Origin: Chryseobacterium binzhouense
GTDB lineage: Bacteria > Bacteroidota > Bacteroidia > Flavobacteriales > Weeksellaceae
NCBI RefSeq assembly: GCF_007474545.1
Contig: NZ_VKOG01000010.1
Span: 1 to 64,000, forward strand
Length of the DNA stretch: 64,000 nt
Direction: 5' to 3'
The notes beneath the pieces are model-generated. The model was not told where the DNA came from. It ran no database searches and saw only the letters and a program-made list of their open reading frames with translations. Positions 5,455 to 63,907 of the stretch are shown piece by piece; position 1 is the stretch's first letter, and each line of letters opens with the position of its first letter. The translations under genes were made by a program, and so were the position numbers.

Positions 5455-6084
5455 CTATATCATCATATCATCAGCAAATCGTATCATCGAAAAAATATAC
5501 AAACATTCCATTGCAATTTGGTTGCTTCGTTCAGTGTATTTTTCGTCCTGAAGAATGGAATTGTCGTAAGATTTCGGGTCGAAATATGTTGTTCCAATTC
5601 GCAAATCGCAACCCGGAATAAACGGACAGTTTTCATCGGCATCGCCACAAGTCATTACCGCTACAAAGTTTTCTTTAGGAAGGCTTTCATCCTCAATGGT
5701 TTTGGAAAAACAAAGATTGAATTTTCCGTCACCAAAATGTACTTCGTATTTCGGATTGTTGGTTTCGTCTGTTTTTTTCACATCAAAACCTGAATAAATT
5801 AAAGCATTGATTGCATTCTGATTGAAAGCTGTCGCTTCTGTTCCTGCGGAAAAAGTATTAACATTAAAACCAAAAAAATTAGCCGCAACTTTTGCCCAAA
5901 CCTGTCCCAGATGACTTCTGCGGGAGTTGTGCGTACAAACATAGACTAAATTAATCTCCTTGTTCTCATTAATTTTCCTCTGAATATGATCAGCTAATTT
6001 TTCAAGCAAAGCTTTTCTTTCCGGATTGATTTCTTTAAAATTTTTACTGAGAATTTCGCAGCGGTCTTCTATTTTCTGAAGCAT
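5455..6084 (-). CDS. arsC: Thioredoxin-type arsenate reductase (low-molecular-weight phosphatase fold)
   Basis: A 209-residue protein. The phosphatase loop VCTHNSRRS starts with C50, and a second cysteine pair C146 and C153 lies in TCGDADENC. The spacing of seven matches the C82/C89 pair of the Staphylococcus pI258 ArsC relay, in which thioredoxin regenerates the enzyme after arsenate is reduced to arsenite. It is longer than that enzyme because of an N-terminal helical extension of about 45 residues, as is common in Bacteroidota. The neighbours (ACR3, ArsR) support an arsenate role over a tyrosine phosphatase role. Confidence 0.88.
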   Translation of the reverse strand: MLQKIEDRCEILSKNFKEINPERKALLEKLADHIQRKINENKEINLVYVCTHNSRRSHLGQVWAKVAANFFGFNVNTFSAGTEATAFNQNAINALIYSGFDVKKTDETNNPKYEVHFGDGKFNLCFSKTIEDESLPKENFVAVMTCGDADENCPFIPGCDLRIGTTYFDPKSYDNSILQDEKYTERSNQIAMECLYIFSMIRFADDMMI

Positions 6085-6102
6085 TTTCGTATACTTTTTA
6101 AA

Positions 6103-6576
6103 TTAACAACATCCGCCACCGGGTGTGCAGGAATTAGCGGCATTTACTGTAAGTTCAGATAAATTTCTTTTTGGTTTTTCCGCAGGAATTCCGCACGCAT
6201 CCTGAGCGAGACAAGCGGTGGTTTTATTTTTCAGAACAAAATGTTTTCCATTAAATTCTAAATCATATTTTCCAATGGTATCCGATTGATATTCTACTTC
6301 GATTTCAGCATCTTCGATACACAATTTCTCTTCAGAAAGCTGTATGATGTTCAGCAATTTTGCAGGTTTTAAGCGATGTTCAAAATCATCGGCATTCCAA
6401 AGCTGGAAATTCACTGTTTTTTCTTTGCGGATCACGCCACCGCAATCAATAAAGTTTTTGGTAATTTGTCCCACTTCCGTAACGTGGAAATGTTCAGGAA
6501 TCATTGTCCCATTTTCCAGCTGAAATTCCACATTTTTTAATGTAGGAAGAATTTCTTTAATTTCTGTAAGAGTCAT
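6103..6576 (-). CDS. DUF6428-type protein of the arsenic operon with a cysteine tail
   Basis: A 157-residue soluble protein with no signal peptide. I recognise it as the DUF6428 type seen beside arsR in Flavobacteriia; its function is not established. The body is polar and contains H28/H30 (EHFHVTEVGQI) and several scattered cysteines. The last residues are SCTPGGGCC (C150, C156, C157), a flexible thiol-rich tail that could bind As(III). It sits between arsR and arsC, 61 bases after arsR and 18 before arsC, with a second operator copy just upstream. A metallochaperone-like or arsenic-sequestering role is inference. Confidence 0.7.
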   Translation of the reverse strand: MTLTEIKEILPTLKNVEFQLENGTMIPEHFHVTEVGQITKNFIDCGGVIRKEKTVNFQLWNADDFEHRLKPAKLLNIIQLSEEKLCIEDAEIEVEYQSDTIGKYDLEFNGKHFVLKNKTTACLAQDACGIPAEKPKRNLSELTVNAANSCTPGGGCC

Positions 6577-6598
6577 ATTTTATGATGTTTTATAATTT

Positions 6599-6619
6599 AA
6601 TATTGCAATATTGCGATTT
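6599..6619. promoter_or_regulatory. Second ArsR operator copy, between arsR and the DUF6428 gene
   Basis: Contains the perfect 14-base palindrome AATATTGCAATATT (6599-6612) followed by GCGAT. The same palindrome followed by ACGAT precedes arsR. Placement inside the operon suggests an additional internal control point. Confidence 0.7.
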
Positions 6620-6637
6620 ATTTAGTCAAAAAAATAT

Positions 6638-6964
6638 CTAACAACATTTTGATTTGGAAACCGTCTCAATAATTTTTGAGAAATATGCATTGAGAATTTC
6701 AATTGTTTTTTCATCAATACAGTAGCAGACAGAATTTCCTTCAATATTTCCTTTGATGATTCCTGCATTTTTGAGTTCTTTCAAATGTTGAGAAACTGTC
6801 GGCTGAGCCAGAGGGAGTTCATTTACAATATCTCCACAAATGCATTCATTTACTTTCAGTAGATATTCAATAATAGCTATTCTTGCGGGATGACCTAAGG
6901 CTTTTGCTATATTTGCCATTTTATTTTGCTGCTCCGTGAAATGCTCTGTTTTTGTAGCGCCCAT
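6638..6964 (-). CDS. arsR: ArsR-family arsenic-responsive repressor
   Basis: A 108-residue winged-helix repressor. The recognition helix region is LAQPTVSQHLKELKNAGII and the classic inducer site ECICGDIV gives C41 and C43; further cysteines are C80, C82 and a terminal C107-C108 pair. ArsR/SmtB proteins leave DNA when As(III) binds these thiols. It is the first gene of the operon and has palindromic operators on both sides (6599 and 6976), so it very likely controls itself, the DUF6428 gene, arsC and the ACR3 pump. Confidence 0.93.
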   Translation of the reverse strand: MGATKTEHFTEQQNKMANIAKALGHPARIAIIEYLLKVNECICGDIVNELPLAQPTVSQHLKELKNAGIIKGNIEGNSVCYCIDEKTIEILNAYFSKIIETVSKSKCC

Positions 6965-57243: not shown

Positions 57244-58320
57244 ATGCAAAAACTCAACTGGCAAAAAATTTACCTCAACTATTCCCCAAAACTCTTGGGG
57301 ATTTGCCGGCGTTATGTAGCAGATCTTCAGGCTGCTGAAGATATTGTTCAGGACAGTTTTATGACAGCCATTGAGAAAAACCAACAGTTGAAAGATGAAA
57401 AGGCTGTTTTTGGATGGCTCAGAAAAATTGTTATCAACAACGCCCTGCAATACATCCGAAAAACAAGTGCAGAAAATTTTGCAACCACAGAAATATCAGA
57501 AATTGCCGAAATAACCGATACCCATCCCGCAATGGACGAAAAAAAGCACATCCTAATATATGATTTCACGAGAGAAGAGCTGTTGAAGTCTATCGACAGC
57601 CTTCCCTCTCATCACAAATCTGTTTTCAATCTCTATTTTATTGAAAACTACACCCATTCAGAAATTTCAAACCTGCTTCAAATCCCTGTAAACACTTCAA
57701 AGTCGCATTTATTAAGGGCGAAAAAATCAGTTCAGGATTATTTGATGAAAAATTTTGGAAACAGGCAAAATGCCAAAAACAAAACTGCTCAGATTCTTGT
57801 TTTTCTTGGCTTCGGCGGACTTTTATGGGCACAGACTTTTCAAAATAAATTTTCAGATTTCGAAATTCAGCCGCAAAAACTATCCGAATTTTCGGGAAGT
57901 ACTGACTTGCAGAATTATTCTGGTTTCAATCAATATTTCAAAAAAAATCTTGTAATTGCTGCAACTTTTTTAATCCTGATGACAGGATCTGCATTTTTGT
58001 TCAGACCAATACCTTCACTTTCTGCAACAAAAAATAATATAAGCTTATCTGAAAATCATTTAGAGCAAAACATAAAAATTAAAGCAGATTATACATCACA
58101 GCAGGAAAAAATAAAAATTTCAACTATTAATACTGATTTAAAAGAAAACTCAGAAGTGACTTTACCAAAATCAGAAGTCGCACAAATAATTTTAACACAA
58201 AGTAATTCTGAAAAAAAACCGCTTACAAAAACAATCTCTCAACCGACTGAAGAAAAAACTGCTCCTGTCGTTATAGTTAAGAAAATCATCCAGAGAGATA
58301 CCATATTTATAGAACACTAA
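57244..58320 (+). CDS. ECF sigma factor with fused membrane segments and DTIF tail
   Basis: 358 residues, about twice the usual ECF length. Residues 1-185 carry region 2 (LQAAEDIVQDSFMTAIEKN, VFGWLRKIVINNAL) and region 4 (LPSHHKSVFNLYFIENYTHSEISNLL). Then follow hydrophobic segments at about 182-198 (AQILVFLGFGGLLWAQTF) and 239-256, and a polar C-terminal region that ends VVIVKKIIQRDTIFIEH. Such an attached anchor could hold the sigma factor at the membrane until released. The next gene starts with a very similar DTIYIYEK segment. Confidence 0.85.
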   Translation: MQKLNWQKIYLNYSPKLLGICRRYVADLQAAEDIVQDSFMTAIEKNQQLKDEKAVFGWLRKIVINNALQYIRKTSAENFATTEISEIAEITDTHPAMDEKKHILIYDFTREELLKSIDSLPSHHKSVFNLYFIENYTHSEISNLLQIPVNTSKSHLLRAKKSVQDYLMKNFGNRQNAKNKTAQILVFLGFGGLLWAQTFQNKFSDFEIQPQKLSEFSGSTDLQNYSGFNQYFKKNLVIAATFLILMTGSAFLFRPIPSLSATKNNISLSENHLEQNIKIKADYTSQQEKIKISTINTDLKENSEVTLPKSEVAQIILTQSNSEKKPLTKTISQPTEEKTAPVVIVKKIIQRDTIFIEH

Positions 58321-58332
58321 ACTATTCTGCTT

Positions 58333-59196
58333 TTGAAAAAACTAATATTCTTTTTATTTATACTGTTTTACACTTGCTTTCAGGCTCAGAGAAAAAAAAC
58401 CGACACTATTTATATTTATGAAAAAGTAATCGTATATGATACCATTTATCTTGAAAAAGCCATCAAATTAAAACCTGCAAATCTTATGTTTTCTTCTTTC
58501 GAAATTAAGGAACAAGAAATTAAAGAAATCAGTCGAAGCATTGATGAAGAACAAATAAAAAAAATTAAATCGAAAAGATTTCAATACGGAATTCAGGCAG
58601 GAATTGGTTTCAAAAAAGCAAGCTGGGCTGAAATGCTCTCTCAAAAGAATCAACAGTTCGGACAAAATTTTGGAATATGGTTTTCTAAAAGCATCATCAA
58701 TCCTAATTTTTCTCTGATGTTTTCCGTTAATATTCATCATTGGAATTCTACTTTTGATCTGGACGCCAATAAACAAGAAACATACCTTGACGGATTTTAT
58801 TTTTCTAAAGATGATCAGCCTCTGCTTTTCCAAAGATTTAATAATAAACATTTCGAGTATATCTTGCAGTTAAAAGCAGTATATGAATGGAAAAAAATTC
58901 GTCCTTTTGCTGGAATTTTAGCCAGCCAGAATGTTTATAAAATGCAATTTTTGACTCCTGAAAACTATGTGTTGAACAAATTGGATGATTTTAAAAGCAA
59001 TCAAATCAATTTCGGATTTTCTGCAGGTCTTCAGTATCGGGTTTTCAGTCGTTTTTTTATTGATTTTGAATATCAGCAATTCAGAATTAAGAATCTTTCT
59101 CTAAAAAATCCCGCATTTGACTTTGACATATTTAAACCGAATAATATCTTTGCTGAAAGAAAATTCTTACTCGGAATTTCTTACCAGATCAGATAA
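58333..59196 (+). CDS. Outer-membrane beta-barrel protein with a DTIY periplasmic start
   Basis: 287 residues from a TTG at 58333 (MKKLIFFLFILFYTCFQAQR signal). The mature N-terminus TDTIYIYEKVIVYDTIYLEK is followed by a helical linker and a predicted barrel (FQYGIQAGIGF, INFGFSAGLQYRVF, FLLGISYQIR with aromatic end). Thirteen bases separate it from the sigma gene. The shared DTI(F/Y) motif suggests that the two proteins touch the same partner, or each other. Confidence 0.7.
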   Translation: MKKLIFFLFILFYTCFQAQRKKTDTIYIYEKVIVYDTIYLEKAIKLKPANLMFSSFEIKEQEIKEISRSIDEEQIKKIKSKRFQYGIQAGIGFKKASWAEMLSQKNQQFGQNFGIWFSKSIINPNFSLMFSVNIHHWNSTFDLDANKQETYLDGFYFSKDDQPLLFQRFNNKHFEYILQLKAVYEWKKIRPFAGILASQNVYKMQFLTPENYVLNKLDDFKSNQINFGFSAGLQYRVFSRFFIDFEYQQFRIKNLSLKNPAFDFDIFKPNNIFAERKFLLGISYQIR

Positions 59197-59241
59197 TTCA
59201 GAAAAGCACAAATCAAGAGAATAATATCTAAAATAATAAAA

Positions 59242-59275
59242 CAGCCTTTTACAATTTTTGTAAAAGGCTACTTTT
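59242..59275. terminator. Bidirectional terminator
   Basis: AGCCTTTTAC pairs with GTAAAAGGCT around AATTTTT. It separates the sigma/barrel unit from the convergent six-cysteine operon. Confidence 0.85.
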
Positions 59276-59280
59276 TAAGA

Positions 59281-59850
59281 TTAATTTTGCTGTATTGATT
59301 CAGTTAATTTTGTGGTAGTACTTGTACTTTTGTGACAAGAAAGATGACAATCTGCAGAACATAATGAAGCACCTAAACTTGTCGGTTTTCCATAACAATC
59401 ATTTGCACGGTGACATTTAATTACACAAATTGCCGGATCATCACCAGAGCCTGCTAAACTCATATCTTTTGTAGACTTAATATGCAGAATTTCCTTACTT
59501 ATATAGATCAAATGCTTTTTGGTTTTTTCGCTTAGAATATTGCTATCCTCTGCAATGTAAGTAGCCACAGGTTTTTGACTTTTCTTATCAACAACTACCT
59601 TAAAATAGTATCCCTTTCCTTCCGAATCCTCTTTGTAAATTGTATAATATTCAATATTATTTTTCTCCAAAACAAAGTTATCTTGTTCTGTTAATAATGA
59701 AAATGATTTATTTTTAGGCTCTTCATTTTTCCTAAAATTACTAAAGTATTCTTTATCATTATCTGTGTTGTTTTTTGTAGCAGCATAAGAAAATAGGCTA
59801 CATAAAATTAGCATCAATAGCGTTACTTTTTTTAAAAAATTTTTTTTCAT
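59281..59850 (-). CDS. Secreted six-cysteine protein A
   Basis: 189 residues: signal peptide about 1-23, a charged middle of about 115 residues, then a cysteine-rich tail with C142, C146, C152, C164, C168 and C172 (spacing 3, 5, 11, 3, 3) after SLAGSGDDPA. The end is TKLTESIQQN. The same spacing and a similar tail occur in the protein at 60695, so they are paralogues. Two CxxxC helices suggest a helical hairpin with three disulfides or a metal site. No family recognised. Five bases after the GLPGLI gene. Confidence 0.75.
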   Translation of the reverse strand: MKKNFLKKVTLLMLILCSLFSYAATKNNTDNDKEYFSNFRKNEEPKNKSFSLLTEQDNFVLEKNNIEYYTIYKEDSEGKGYYFKVVVDKKSQKPVATYIAEDSNILSEKTKKHLIYISKEILHIKSTKDMSLAGSGDDPAICVIKCHRANDCYGKPTSLGASLCSADCHLSCHKSTSTTTKLTESIQQN

Positions 59851-59855
59851 AATTG

Positions 59856-60683
59856 TTAAGGTTTTAGTTCTATTTTATTTTGTTTTTTAAACATTTCTAT
59901 TAAACTTTTTTGAGTATCATTAACTAATTTTCTCATATCTACAACATTACCGTTTTTATCAGCTCTTTCATAGATTTGAGTAGCATTCATTAACTCTTGC
60001 ATTCTTTGTGTAGGATTATCCTCATAATTTTTTCTCAAATCATAATATTTTTTTCTAGAAGTTTCTATAAATTTAGTAGTACTAAGATCTAAAGTAATAT
60101 CGTTTCTATCTGTAGAAATACCTATAATACTAAAACAATGCTTATTTTCTGTGTCATAAATTTCCAAGATTAAACCTGGTAAACCAAAAAATTTATAGGG
60201 ACCTTCCTGGATAGGTATTTGTTCCGTAAAATAAGCCTCATAACTTCTTCCTGCATAAGAAGTTTTTGCTAAAACAGCATTATATCCTAAGATTTCTTTT
60301 TTTGTATTAGTAATAATCCATTTAAAATCTGGCTTTTCAGAATATTTGAATTGTTTATCCATAAAATCATTAGAATAAAAAACAACTTCTCTTTTTGCTA
60401 AATCTTTACCTATAATACCTCCAAGATAATCTTCTGGTAAAGCTCTGAAATTGGTTGTTTTATTGTTTTTAGTATCTGCAATCATAATAGAATCTGACAA
60501 GTATTCGCCTTCACTAAAAAATAAAGATTCTTTTTCATCAATCCGAAGAAATGCTGTCTGAGATATTATTGTGGTATCTTCAACATTTTTTTGTTTAGAA
60601 TACTTATACTGAACAACTAAATTTTGTGAAAATAAACTGCTGCAACTGAAGAATAAAACAATTATACTTATTTTCATTCTCAA
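59856..60683 (-). CDS. GLPGLI family protein
   Basis: 275 residues. Signal peptide about 1-19 (ending SSLFSQ). The family motif is present as FFGLPGLILEIYD at about 176. GLPGLI proteins are exported Bacteroidota proteins of unknown function, often beside TonB-dependent receptors; here none is adjacent. The C-terminal 60 residues are helical and charged (KLVNDTQKSLIEMFKKQNK). It sits between the two six-cysteine genes with gaps of 11 and 5 bases, so all three are one operon. Confidence 0.85.
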   Translation of the reverse strand: MRMKISIIVLFFSCSSLFSQNLVVQYKYSKQKNVEDTTIISQTAFLRIDEKESLFFSEGEYLSDSIMIADTKNNKTTNFRALPEDYLGGIIGKDLAKREVVFYSNDFMDKQFKYSEKPDFKWIITNTKKEILGYNAVLAKTSYAGRSYEAYFTEQIPIQEGPYKFFGLPGLILEIYDTENKHCFSIIGISTDRNDITLDLSTTKFIETSRKKYYDLRKNYEDNPTQRMQELMNATQIYERADKNGNVVDMRKLVNDTQKSLIEMFKKQNKIELKP

Positions 60684-60694
60684 ATTTATATAAT

Positions 60695-61183
60695 TTATTG
60701 TATTGATGCCGTAAGAGATTTTACTGGTTTAGAAAGCATATAACATTCAATGAAACAGTCTGTAGCACAAAGCATAGTTCCTACTTGGGATGGTTGATCA
60801 TCACATTTCCATTTATTATTACAGTCCGAAAAGCAGTTGGCTCTTATGTCTGTTGGCCCTCCATCACCTGAACTTTTTACACTATTAATGTGATAAGTAA
60901 TGAAATCAGAAACTTGTTGAGTTGCAATATCAATGTTTATGATATCTTCTAATTTTTGGTCAGAATCCAATACTTCGATTGAATAAGAGGATATTTTACC
61001 ATTTTCAGCTTCTCCTACATAAACTTTGAGCTTTTTTCTCATACCATCAGCAACCGTTCTGTACACAATTTTTTCATGCACATTAATCTCTCTTAGCTGT
61101 TCATTCTTATACAGCTCAACTCTGTCTCCTGCGAAGCAAAAAGAAGTAATAAATAAAACGAATAATAATGTTAAATTTTTCAT
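60695..61183 (-). CDS. Secreted six-cysteine protein B
   Basis: 162 residues: signal peptide about 1-18 (ending FCFAG), a middle region (KLKVYVGEAENGKISSYSIE), then C117, C121, C127, C139, C143 and C147 with spacing 3, 5, 11, 3, 3 after VKSSGDGGPTDI. The tail ends SKPVKSLTASIQ, similar to the end of protein A. First gene of the operon. Its promoter region is shared with the divergent XRE gene. Confidence 0.75.
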   Translation of the reverse strand: MKNLTLLFVLFITSFCFAGDRVELYKNEQLREINVHEKIVYRTVADGMRKKLKVYVGEAENGKISSYSIEVLDSDQKLEDIINIDIATQQVSDFITYHINSVKSSGDGGPTDIRANCFSDCNNKWKCDDQPSQVGTMLCATDCFIECYMLSKPVKSLTASIQ

Positions 61184-61212
61184 TTGAATTAAGTTTTTAT
61201 TGTTTAACAGTT

Positions 61213-61220
61213 CAAAACTA
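61213..61220 (-). promoter_or_regulatory. Possible -7 box of the six-cysteine operon
   Basis: Minus-strand TAGTTTTG fits TAnnTTTG; the leader would be about 25 bases. No clear -33 element. Confidence 0.35.
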
Positions 61221-61252
61221 AAACAAATATTTCACACTATATATGAATATTA

Positions 61253-61271
61253 TTCCACAAAATATGTGGAA
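61253..61271. promoter_or_regulatory. Palindrome TTCCACA-n5-TGTGGAA in the divergent promoter region
   Basis: Perfect seven-base arms at 61253-61259 and 61265-61271. It lies between the two -7 boxes, where binding could affect both directions. Candidate operator for the XRE protein at 61311. Confidence 0.55.
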
Positions 61272-61289
61272 CTTTTTGGACATTTTTTA

Positions 61290-61297
61290 TATTTTTG
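61290..61297 (+). promoter_or_regulatory. -7 box of the XRE gene
   Basis: TATTTTTG fits TAnnTTTG; transcription should start near 61302, nine bases before the ATG. Confidence 0.45.
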
Positions 61298-61310
61298 CAA
61301 AAAACATTTT

Positions 61311-61631
61311 ATGGTCGGAAAAAAATTAAGAATCCTTAGAACTAAAGCACAAATTTCTCAGCAGGACTTAGCAGATTTTGTAGGTGTTGACAGAAAAACA
61401 TATATCAACTGGGAAAACGAAATTACTGATATAAAATCGGAGTACATCCCTAGATTAGCAGAAAAATTAGGTGTCGATTTCAACGAACTTTTTGATGAAA
61501 ATGTGACTAGTATTCAGCAAACCTTTACTGACAGTATATTTAATAATAGTATTATGATTATGATGGTTACCGACAAAAAAGTAATGACAGATGTATTAAA
61601 AGTTTTGAAAAGAGATAACAATCCTGAATAA
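61311..61631 (+). CDS. XRE-family regulator divergent from the six-cysteine operon
   Basis: 106 residues from the ATG at 61311; the longer reading from 61200 runs through the promoter and palindrome. Cro/CI domain: GKKLRILRTKAQISQQDLADFVGVDRKTYINWENEITDI (about 3-41). The second half, about 60 residues, contains SIFNNSIMIMMVTDKKVMTDVL and may be a dimerisation segment. It lies 127 bases from the divergent operon and probably regulates it. Confidence 0.82.
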   Translation: MVGKKLRILRTKAQISQQDLADFVGVDRKTYINWENEITDIKSEYIPRLAEKLGVDFNELFDENVTSIQQTFTDSIFNNSIMIMMVTDKKVMTDVLKVLKRDNNPE

Positions 61632-61664
61632 AAACAAATTCGGATTTAAGAAAAGCACTACTTT

Positions 61665-62639
61665 ATGATTTACTTTCAGTTTCCTTTTGACGAAAAATTC
61701 TATTCTATCGATGAAAAATATGAGATACATCCCATAGAATTTCGTTCATTTGACAATGCGGAAATTAAAAATTTCAAAGGAAAAATATTGGAAATCAGTA
61801 AGGATGAATTTAATACACTAAATATAAATTCTGCCATTCTCCATGATGAGGAAGTAAATTATAAAGCAGAAAACAAAGAGGAATACCTGAAAAAGCTGGA
61901 AGATATAATCGAAATTATCAAAGAAAACAAACTACCGAAACTTGTTCTGTCAAGAAGAAAAATTATCCGTGATTTTAATTCTTTAAATCTTAACAAAAGT
62001 TTTTCAAATCTTTGCCTAAATTATCCAAATGCCTTTAAATACGTGTTTTTTGACGGAAAAGATTCCTGGATGGGTGCTTTCTCAGAAGTTTTGGGAAAAT
62101 TTAATAAAATAACTCAGGAATTTGAAACGATGAGTCTTGCAGGAACAATTCCTGTGCATGAAAACTGGTCGCAAAAAGAAATTGAAGAACAAAAACCTGT
62201 TTCAGATTACATCCGGAATATTCTACAACAATACGATTTTGAAAATACATTAAAAGAGTCTGAAACCTATGATCATATTTCAGGGAATATTAAACATTTA
62301 AAAACAGATTTTAAGCTGAAAATTAATCCTGAAAATTTGGATATGATCATCAGAGAACTGCATCCTACACCAGCGGTTTGCGGTATTCCCAAAGATTTTT
62401 GCGCAGATCAGATTGGTAAAATCGAAAAATTTCCGCGCGAGCTGTATGCAGGATATATCAAAATTGAAACAGAACATCACATTCAGTTTTTTGTCAATCT
62501 GCGTTGTGCCAAGCTTTATAAAAATGCTATTCATCTCTTTGTTGGCGGCGGAATTACCGCAGAAAGCAGTCCGGAAAAAGAATGGGACGAAACAGAACTG
62601 AAATCAGAAGCTGTTTTAAAAAATCTTGAGCTGAATTGA
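61665..62639 (+). CDS. menF: Isochorismate synthase (MenF-like chorismate-binding enzyme)
   Basis: 324 residues. Chorismate-binding motifs: MSLAGTIPVHENW, HPTPAVCGIPKDF, ELYAGYIKIE and VGGGITAESSPEKEWDETELK. It converts chorismate to isochorismate for menaquinone (or siderophore) synthesis. The N-terminal part is shorter than in E. coli MenF. The start is 33 bases after the XRE gene. A salicylate or siderophore role cannot be excluded, but no siderophore gene is in the window. Confidence 0.88.
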   Translation: MIYFQFPFDEKFYSIDEKYEIHPIEFRSFDNAEIKNFKGKILEISKDEFNTLNINSAILHDEEVNYKAENKEEYLKKLEDIIEIIKENKLPKLVLSRRKIIRDFNSLNLNKSFSNLCLNYPNAFKYVFFDGKDSWMGAFSEVLGKFNKITQEFETMSLAGTIPVHENWSQKEIEEQKPVSDYIRNILQQYDFENTLKESETYDHISGNIKHLKTDFKLKINPENLDMIIRELHPTPAVCGIPKDFCADQIGKIEKFPRELYAGYIKIETEHHIQFFVNLRCAKLYKNAIHLFVGGGITAESSPEKEWDETELKSEAVLKNLELN

Positions 62640-62672
62640 ATTTACTTCTAATAAAATGTGAGTTACAATACA

Positions 62673-62699
62673 AATCCTCCTGAATTTCTCGGGAGGATT
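62673..62699. terminator. Hairpin after menF
   Basis: AATCCTCCTGA pairs with TCGGGAGGATT (one G-T pair); the T-run is weak. Confidence 0.55.
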
Positions 62700-62731
62700 C
62701 TTGGTATTTAATCAGTGTTGACAACGATAGC

Positions 62732-63907
62732 CTATTCATAATATTCAATTTTTCTTATCCATTTATATAAATCTTTTCCATCTACATTTTTAATAACTTC
62801 TGTCCAGTTTTTATACTTATCATATTTATATTTAAATACAATTTCAGTTGCTTTTAAATCACTTTTACTTTCCCCTTGAGCATCTAGATACAAAACTTTT
62901 ACTATTTGATTATTTTCATATGTAAACTGAATTTGATTTAAAATATTCCCTTGATAAAAGTTTTTTCTTGTTTTCAGAGTACCATCATCATAATATTCAT
63001 AAGCTGTTGATGAAATACTGGCAAAAGCACCTCCAATTATTTCTTCACGGTATTTTCCGTTTTTTTCTAATATATAATACCGGTATTTATCGTCATTAAT
63101 CTGAGTCTCTTTTATAATTCTTCCTAATGTATCCCGTTCATATTTTGTGTATCCTCTTTGAAAAAGTTTTTTATTATAATGATCGCTCCTGTAACTGAAT
63201 GATTTTGATTCTTTAATTTGTAAATCATTATCATAAAAATTAACCTGAGTTAGTCTTTTCCTGAAAACTGAATCCTTTCCTTCCAGAAAAGAATTTTTTC
63301 CGAGTTTATTCCATACAAAATCAGTTACAGCAAAAACACTGTCGGTCTTTGTTAATGTATCAAATTTTGTTATTATGAACGGATTATATTTTTCATGATT
63401 GATAAAATAAACTTTAGTAGGTTCATCTTCCCATTTGGAGCGATATTCTGTGAACTTTAATTTTTTACTTGAACCCTCATAAATATATTTCTTATAAGTT
63501 TTGGAATACTTATTAGTGGATTTTTCATTAATTAACCTTCCCAAAAAATCATAAGTATAATCATAATCGTCAACAACATCTCCTGACCTATAATACCAGG
63601 TTTCTTTTGTTATATTTCGGTTTTTATCGTAATATGTTTCGTTATTAATGTATCTGCAAAAATCACTCTCAAACCATGTTCCTGACATTCTGGATCTTAA
63701 ATTTTGGGGTGTCATGATCACCGAGTGACCATATTCGTCATCTCCATGCATAAACGTAAAAGGACCTGAATCATTTAAAAATAGTACATATTCTTTTACA
63801 TATTTTGGTTTCCCAAAAATAGAATCTTTAATAATCTTAGAGCTATTTTGTTGGGCTTGAGTTATTAAAACCATTCCAAAATTAAACAGCAATAATATTT
63901 TTTTCAT
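62732..63907 (-). CDS. Secreted protein with YD/MORN-like repeats
   Basis: 391 residues. Signal peptide about 1-19 (ending TQAQQ). The body has recurring tyrosine-rich units: YDFLGRLINEKS, YERDTLGRIIKET, YYDDGTLKTRKNFY, YENNQIVKVLY. These resemble the YD or toxin_WG-type repeats of Rhs and surface proteins, but the protein is small, with no toxin domain. Other end features are absent. Function unknown. The start is 93 bases from the window edge. Confidence 0.72.
   Translation of the reverse strand: MKKILLLFNFGMVLITQAQQNSSKIIKDSIFGKPKYVKEYVLFLNDSGPFTFMHGDDEYGHSVIMTPQNLRSRMSGTWFESDFCRYINNETYYDKNRNITKETWYYRSGDVVDDYDYTYDFLGRLINEKSTNKYSKTYKKYIYEGSSKKLKFTEYRSKWEDEPTKVYFINHEKYNPFIITKFDTLTKTDSVFAVTDFVWNKLGKNSFLEGKDSVFRKRLTQVNFYDNDLQIKESKSFSYRSDHYNKKLFQRGYTKYERDTLGRIIKETQINDDKYRYYILEKNGKYREEIIGGAFASISSTAYEYYDDGTLKTRKNFYQGNILNQIQFTYENNQIVKVLYLDAQGESKSDLKATEIVFKYKYDKYKNWTEVIKNVDGKDLYKWIRKIEYYE

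Follow-up and report, generated by a model that had tools for sequence, protein, structure and literature searches.

Two exported-looking proteins sharing one six-cysteine tail recur with a distinct GLPGLI clade in a candidate undescribed cassette of Weeksellaceae

Proteins of the GLPGLI family (TIGR01200 / PF09697) are widespread in Bacteroidota, and neither Pfam nor NCBIfam gives the family a function. Class IIb (two-peptide) bacteriocins are made as short precursors with a double-glycine leader, have killing activity and come with an immunity protein. Short cysteine-rich helix-turn-helix peptides are known from plants (the alpha-hairpinins) and fungi (the hairpin loop peptides), as described in the available parts of PMC11591084 and PMC13357843; the former gives the alpha-hairpinin 6C motif as CX3CX3CX4-20CX3CX3C. 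The locus considered here lies in a 64,000-nucleotide stretch of Chryseobacterium binzhouense (contig NZ_VKOG01000010.1, positions 1 to 64,000; hereafter the window). On its minus strand a GLPGLI gene stands between the genes of two proteins with six-cysteine tails, in the operon order CysA, GLPGLI, CysB, and an XRE gene diverges from them on the plus strand. At the level of sequence the four genes, three in the operon and one for the divergent regulator, make up a discrete cassette that is found again as a unit elsewhere.

The initial annotation had reported that CysA and CysB share the spacing C-x3-C-x5-C-x11-C-x3-C-x3-C. The spacing is exact in both translations and occurs nowhere else among the 68 open reading frames (ORFs) of the window (at least 60 aa after overlap filtering; 19,048 residues, 0.95% Cys), where cysteine frequency alone predicts 1.4e-8 occurrences; the similar tail ends, LTASIQ and LTESIQQN, are likewise as described. 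The further claim that the two are paralogues with a diverged remainder needs correcting: when the CysA and CysB profiles are compared, the alignment is confined to the tail (49 columns, probability 98.7), and once signal and tail are taken away there is no match (probability 0.2), so that a common origin of the N-terminal domains is undetectable by profile comparison. CysA and CysB are thus shown by this comparison to be two exported-looking proteins without detectable kinship except in one six-cysteine tail. The start of CysA reads as signal-peptide-like. Counting K, R, D and E, the tail carries a net charge of -1 to -4 in CysA and of 0 to +2 in CysB in all 11 complete modules listed below (Wilcoxon p 0.001, a statistic that ignores the relatedness of the loci); at one further locus, L069, both tails are negative. 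In four loci both proteins have C-terminal extensions of 12-17 residues; in seven, the extension of each is 1-3 residues long.

An AlphaFold model was obtained for CysB (predicted local distance difference test score, pLDDT, 78.4). The model consists of an N-terminal helix (4-22), a beta4-alpha domain, a low-confidence linker and a six-cysteine helical hairpin with helices at 139-149 and 158-172 (block pLDDT 93-94): the CysB tail is predicted to be a helix-turn-helix hairpin set behind the linker. In these predicted helices it resembles the alpha-hairpinins, but both window tails are spaced x3, x5, x11, x3, x3, with x5 rather than x3 between the second and third cysteines. Unlike the plant and fungal peptides, moreover, the tail is bacterial and forms the C-terminal part of a larger protein; homology is not claimed.

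No family of Pfam, NCBIfam, PADLOC or PHROGs covers either window protein above its cut-off or E limit. Window CysA has no Pfam or NCBIfam match, and window CysB has sub-cut-off matches only (e.g. DUF5634, 17 bits vs a cut-off of 30.4). Among relatives, 15 CysB proteins compared with Pfam gave a best E of 0.0077, and 11 CysA proteins compared with NCBIfam a best E of 0.014, to the PG1828 lipoprotein family, in 4 of the 11. CysA, CysB and GLPGLI match nothing in PADLOC at E 0.01 and nothing in PHROGs, and were rejected as defence or phage genes on that ground; the XRE protein matches only those PADLOC models that contain a helix-turn-helix (HTH). The literature searched contains no description of this module, although most subscription papers lay outside the search and a description elsewhere is possible; PMC9603813, in its available part, merely lists GLPGLI genes among PhoP-dependent genes. 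Taken with the family searches, and with the spread of the tail and its recurring GLPGLI neighbour described below, this supports the initial annotation's reading of a candidate undescribed secreted system.

The middle protein belongs, as annotated, to the GLPGLI family: TIGR01200 scores 157.4 bits (cut-off 50) and Porph_ging (PF09697) 36.2 bits (cut-off 25), and the translation carries the motif FGLPGLI; the one other Pfam match, PF22252, stays below cut-off (25.0 vs 27.6 bits). The window's genome has 10 GLPGLI matches, two of which adjoin tail genes, the other eight being paired, single or beside a large protein. In a FastTree phylogeny the module GLPGLI proteins stand apart both from the GLPGLI proteins of loci L070 and L071 and from six others encoded in the window's genome (support 0.999), which shows the partner of CysA and CysB to be a distinct clade. 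In the reverse direction (profile A7, E ≤1e-60, at most 8 first-look candidates scored in each genome, so that a miss is possible), the module clade occurs at 13 or more places in at least 10 of 307 family genomes, and a tail gene, whole or broken, stands beside it at 13 of 13. Its structural model strongly matches the N-terminal bowl-like domain of type II PNGase (PDB 4r4x/4r4z, 7zgn), which has been called unique (PMC9522356), and weakly matches LolA-like folds. The predicted fold is thus that of the PNGase domain, with a weaker resemblance to the LolA/LolB/RseB/MucB carriers and sensors, and the same link may possibly extend to the whole GLPGLI family. The 275-aa protein lacks a PNGase catalytic domain; against LolA/LolB and RseB/MucB it shows 5-14% identity and a weak fold match, neither a lipoprotein nor a sigma factor is known as its partner here, and a role of that sort is putative.

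By the initial annotation's own test, a tail confined to this genome would have spoken against the proposal. The tail profile instead finds 32 places in 17 of 321 family genomes and 7 of 33 genera; the exact spacing lies in an open frame at 30 of them, the exceptions being L035 (internal stop) and L124 (degenerate). Uniform cysteine spacing in alignment A9 (26 distinct tails) is there by construction, because its tails were chosen by the six-cysteine pattern itself. The CysA profile matches in 9 of 149 genus genomes and the CysB profile in 10 of 247 family genomes, and a scan of named genomes, in which records of the window's own genome may be missing, gave seven loci, six from Chryseobacterium and one from a Weeksellaceae metagenome-assembled genome. 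Outside the family (order and phylum samples of 395 genomes each, both including the family itself) the tail profile gave 7 distinct places, none convincing: E was 4.7e-4 or worse, 6 had in-frame stops, and not even a loosened six-cysteine pattern appeared in any ORF of the fetched loci, for which reasons they were treated as chance. A search for mobile carriers with CysB gave no match in 72,556 plasmid or 50,697 phage records; 185 stretches of viral contigs fit a pattern, and none encodes a relative.

The 17 genomes contain 20 tail loci, each of which was mapped. Complete CysA-GLPGLI-CysB modules number 11 (the window, L006, L027, L028, L029, L030, L031, L032, L064, L066 and L067), with gaps of -23 to 17 bases given the starts used. 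For the window the previously reported gaps of 11 and 5 bases hold if GLPGLI starts at TTG 60683; with ATG 60677 they become 17 and 5. A divergent XRE gene accompanies nine of the 11, its position being taken by an AraC-type regulator in L029 and L064; mapping thus shows that a divergent regulator, usually XRE, heads the operon. In the window the XRE gene is indeed at the shared promoter region, although its end, 61631, falls beyond the interval first annotated. Across the 20 loci, intact GLPGLI of the module kind directly adjoins the tail gene in 15, is found two genes downstream in two, is truncated in one and absent in two, which, with the reverse test, bears out the conserved GLPGLI neighbour that had been proposed. 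The remaining loci vary in make-up: L069 runs CysA-CysB-GLPGLI; L034, L065 and L068 (the last with a broken CysB) have GLPGLI-CysB without CysA; L033 has CysB behind a C-terminal remnant of GLPGLI, close to a contig end; and L035 has a broken CysB with no GLPGLI found within 15 kb. In L070 (6371-7618) and L071 (6437-7664) the genes directly after the tail gene encode a small ATP-binding cassette (ABC) ATPase (PF00005), a protein without family match and then a GLPGLI protein of another clade; none of the NCBIfam matches shown there (to ABC-F, bacteriocin-export and other ATPases) reaches its cut-off. At L124 (G246:C8), 5996-6863, the tail of a 128-aa exported-looking protein is degenerate and Cys-poor; an XRE gene diverges from it, and the 12 kb fetched contain no GLPGLI gene.

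The window's genome itself carries a second complete module, L006. Its CysA, GLPGLI and CysB are 40%, 52% and 46% identical to the window copies, and the two modules are therefore no recent duplication. Placement of the module varies. In the window and L027 it lies between an outer-membrane protein gene and menF, and in L030, L031 and L032 on the other side of menF; the different sides suggest that the module arrived separately at this one region. Of 30 other genomes searched for menF, 17 gave a match, and in none of these does a module lie within the ~1.5 kb fetched on either side. L066 and L067 are located elsewhere, and two of the genes that flank L067 recur in the neighbourhood of L006/L028. 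Nei-Gojobori dN/dS for CysA, GLPGLI and CysB is 0.04-0.22 over six pairs of loci (author-chosen and partly overlapping), which indicates that the operon genes are maintained. Among 12 comparisons of tails, four have a dN of zero and three a dN above that of the rest of the protein; the dN/dS values oppose a fast-evolving toxin, those three comparisons notwithstanding.

Coordinates of the cassette in the window and of the second module of the same genome
Feature	Position	Strand	Remarks
CysA	60695..61183	-	ORF; first operon gene, 162 aa, own N-terminal region, acidic six-Cys tail
Six-Cys tail of CysA	60740..60847	-	A9 tail profile match E 1.2e-17; net charge -3 without His
GLPGLI-family protein	59856..60683	-	275 aa from TTG 60683, or 273 aa from ATG 60677
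CysB	59281..59850	-	ORF; last operon gene, 189 aa
Six-Cys tail of CysB	59332..59436	-	A9 tail profile match E 1.1e-16; net charge +1 without His
XRE (Cro/CI-type HTH) regulator, divergent	61311..61631	+	106 aa; HTH_19 43.7 bits, HTH_3 43.5 bits
Palindrome TTCCACA-n5-TGTGGAA, candidate operator	61253..61271		between XRE gene and operon
TATTTTTG, possible -7 box of XRE gene	61290..61297	+	read from sequence
TAGTTTTG, possible -7 box of operon	61213..61220	-	read from sequence
Second module, L006 (end of contig C1)	CysB 240-719, GLPGLI 734-1561, CysA 1564-2013; XRE 2202-2591	- (XRE divergent)	positions are those of L006

The explanation that we tentatively favour, at somewhat less than an even chance, is a Sec-exported CysA/CysB pair escorted by a tail-binding GLPGLI, repressed by XRE and used in competition. 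CysA and CysB would leave the cytosol by Sec, and their tails would be locked by disulfides outside it. GLPGLI would then bind the tail, escorting or holding both proteins so that they can be passed on to the outer membrane or the outside. The tail is proposed as the binding site because it is the only part common to CysA and CysB, and such binding is the simplest link given that one GLPGLI clade stays with the tails and has a predicted carrier-like fold. Once delivered, CysA and CysB would act as a pair, as an acidic tail on the one and a neutral-to-basic tail on the other suggest, and the XRE protein would repress both the operon and its own gene from operators between them. What the cassette is for is a guess: competition with other bacteria seems the most likely use, since the cassette is rare, patchy and apparently horizontally spread, with two lanthipeptide-side placements, but this is the weakest step. 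A clade with all of its 13 matches (at least 13) beside a six-cysteine gene, together with a predicted carrier-like fold, makes direct GLPGLI-tail binding a question that can be asked; were GLPGLI to bind its neighbour's tail, two undescribed protein families would gain a role at once, and the rest of the GLPGLI family a lead.

In L070 (G166:C43), between 1191 and 8399, the signal-like starts of three small proteins are alike (MKNLLFG...GTFAFA) and their bodies differ; one of them is the six-Cys protein, and each has a GLPGLI gene within a few genes after it, so that the arrangement looks like variable cargo plus GLPGLI. An additional GLPGLI gene lies 426 bases upstream of the tail gene. In a wider proposal, which we regard as rather doubtful, the six-cysteine hairpin would be an address tag by which a dedicated LolA-fold GLPGLI escorts exported proteins, unrelated in other respects, through the periplasm; by extension, at which these repeats hint, the whole GLPGLI family would be escorts of small secreted Bacteroidota cargoes.

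A two-component bacteriocin-like pair is unlikely; in it CysA and CysB would be precursors that carry the active peptides as their C-terminal six-cysteine hairpins, and GLPGLI would serve in immunity or processing. It would account for a compact cysteine-rich hairpin predicted behind a linker, for the opposite charge tendency of the two tails and for the ABC ATPase and family-less protein that follow the tail gene in L070/L071; as in class IIb bacteriocins, two exported-looking partners share one operon. However, CysA and CysB are 148-189 aa long in the 11 complete modules, with signal-peptide-like starts and no double-glycine leader, and the window operon lacks an ABC exporter. Purifying selection on the tail also speaks against it, as does L033, where an intact CysB stands with a truncated GLPGLI. 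Further support comes from two modules that lie divergently beside LanB-containing clusters: at L029 (179-7063) and L064 (7516-14001) the module adjoins an AraC-type regulator, a short lanthipeptide-like precursor, an X-Pro-type peptidase and LanB (Lant_dehydr_N). The AraC regulators are 67% identical, and the L029 precursor scores 19.2 bits, under the cut-off of 22. Of 149 genus genomes, 139 have relatives of the L029 regulator, and 19 have one at 60% identity or more; three of these 19 carry a tail gene, and in G031 alone does it stand beside the regulator (G307 was outside the sample). A lanthipeptide partner as a general association was rejected on this 1 in 19. Nor do the eight window genes scanned (57244-63907) include a C39 peptidase, a lan gene or enzymes of the LanB/LanC type of class I lanthipeptides. 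As a separate observation, L128 (G008) has at 1215-1403 a short peptide gene (MKNLKKISRDDLKQIKGGG...) that adjoins menF on the side holding the module in L030-L032, and the peptide bears an apparent likeness to the bacteriocin-like leader of L029.

Distinctly unlikely is an envelope stress or redox/metal system, in which metal or oxidants would be sensed or bound by the six-cysteine domains, with GLPGLI as an RseB/MucB-like periplasmic sensor partner. VKOR adjoins L029, but inspection by eye of the mapped loci, where most neighbours are without a family scan, finds that no redox enzyme, metal transporter or anti-sigma factor recurs beside the module.

By identity, the XRE proteins can be sorted into type I (window, L027, L066 and L067; 57-80% identity), type II (L030, L031 and L032; 79-91%) and the pair L006/L028 (57%). 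Between the equivalent loci of this pair (L006 2202-2591, L028 7703-8080), 32 of the first 62 residues are identical, in the DNA-binding half, and 31 of 33 aligned in the C-terminal coil. The palindrome TTCCACA-n5-TGTGGAA is present in the shared promoter region as annotated and has its sole exact copy in the genome there; it is exact in L027 and partly retained at the same place in L067. It is statistically weak: its arm length is reached by 134 of 300 mononucleotide shuffles, and its composition-weighted score by 6 of 200 dinucleotide shuffles. A candidate operator common to the type II loci is TATGTT(C/A)TCGCGAAAACATA, and L006/L028 share a 22-base near-palindrome, as well as a 12-base palindrome between the genes that changes in a paired way from ATCAATATTGAT to ATCAGTACTGAT. 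Over nine loci the best score of the candidate operators is reached by 2 to 35 of 200 dinucleotide shuffles, none being strong alone. The Bacteroidota -7 consensus is TAnnTTTG, and the candidate string TAGTTTTG also precedes the operon in L030 and L031. That the operon merely happens to lie next to the XRE gene and the palindrome, and that these are not its regulator and operator, could be argued from this weakness, from at least three weakly related XRE types and from AraC in two complete modules; we hold it very improbable, given the divergent XRE gene in most complete modules and a type I XRE that follows the module into another genus (g12), with other flanks and at loci without menF.

We think it equally improbable that CysA and CysB form a surface adhesion or matrix pair on the outer surface with GLPGLI only a periplasmic chaperone: the signal-like starts, the predicted beta domain with cysteine hairpin and the opposed tail charges would suit it, but the operon has no outer-membrane partner (no tool-based search for anchoring motifs was made).

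Beside the cassette in the window, 57244-58320 encodes an extracytoplasmic function (ECF)-type sigma factor (domains 10-162) with a long C-terminal extension that contains a hydrophobic segment, and similar long forms occur in L031 and L032. The gene that follows it, at 58333-59196, encodes a barrel-like outer-membrane protein below Pfam cut-off.
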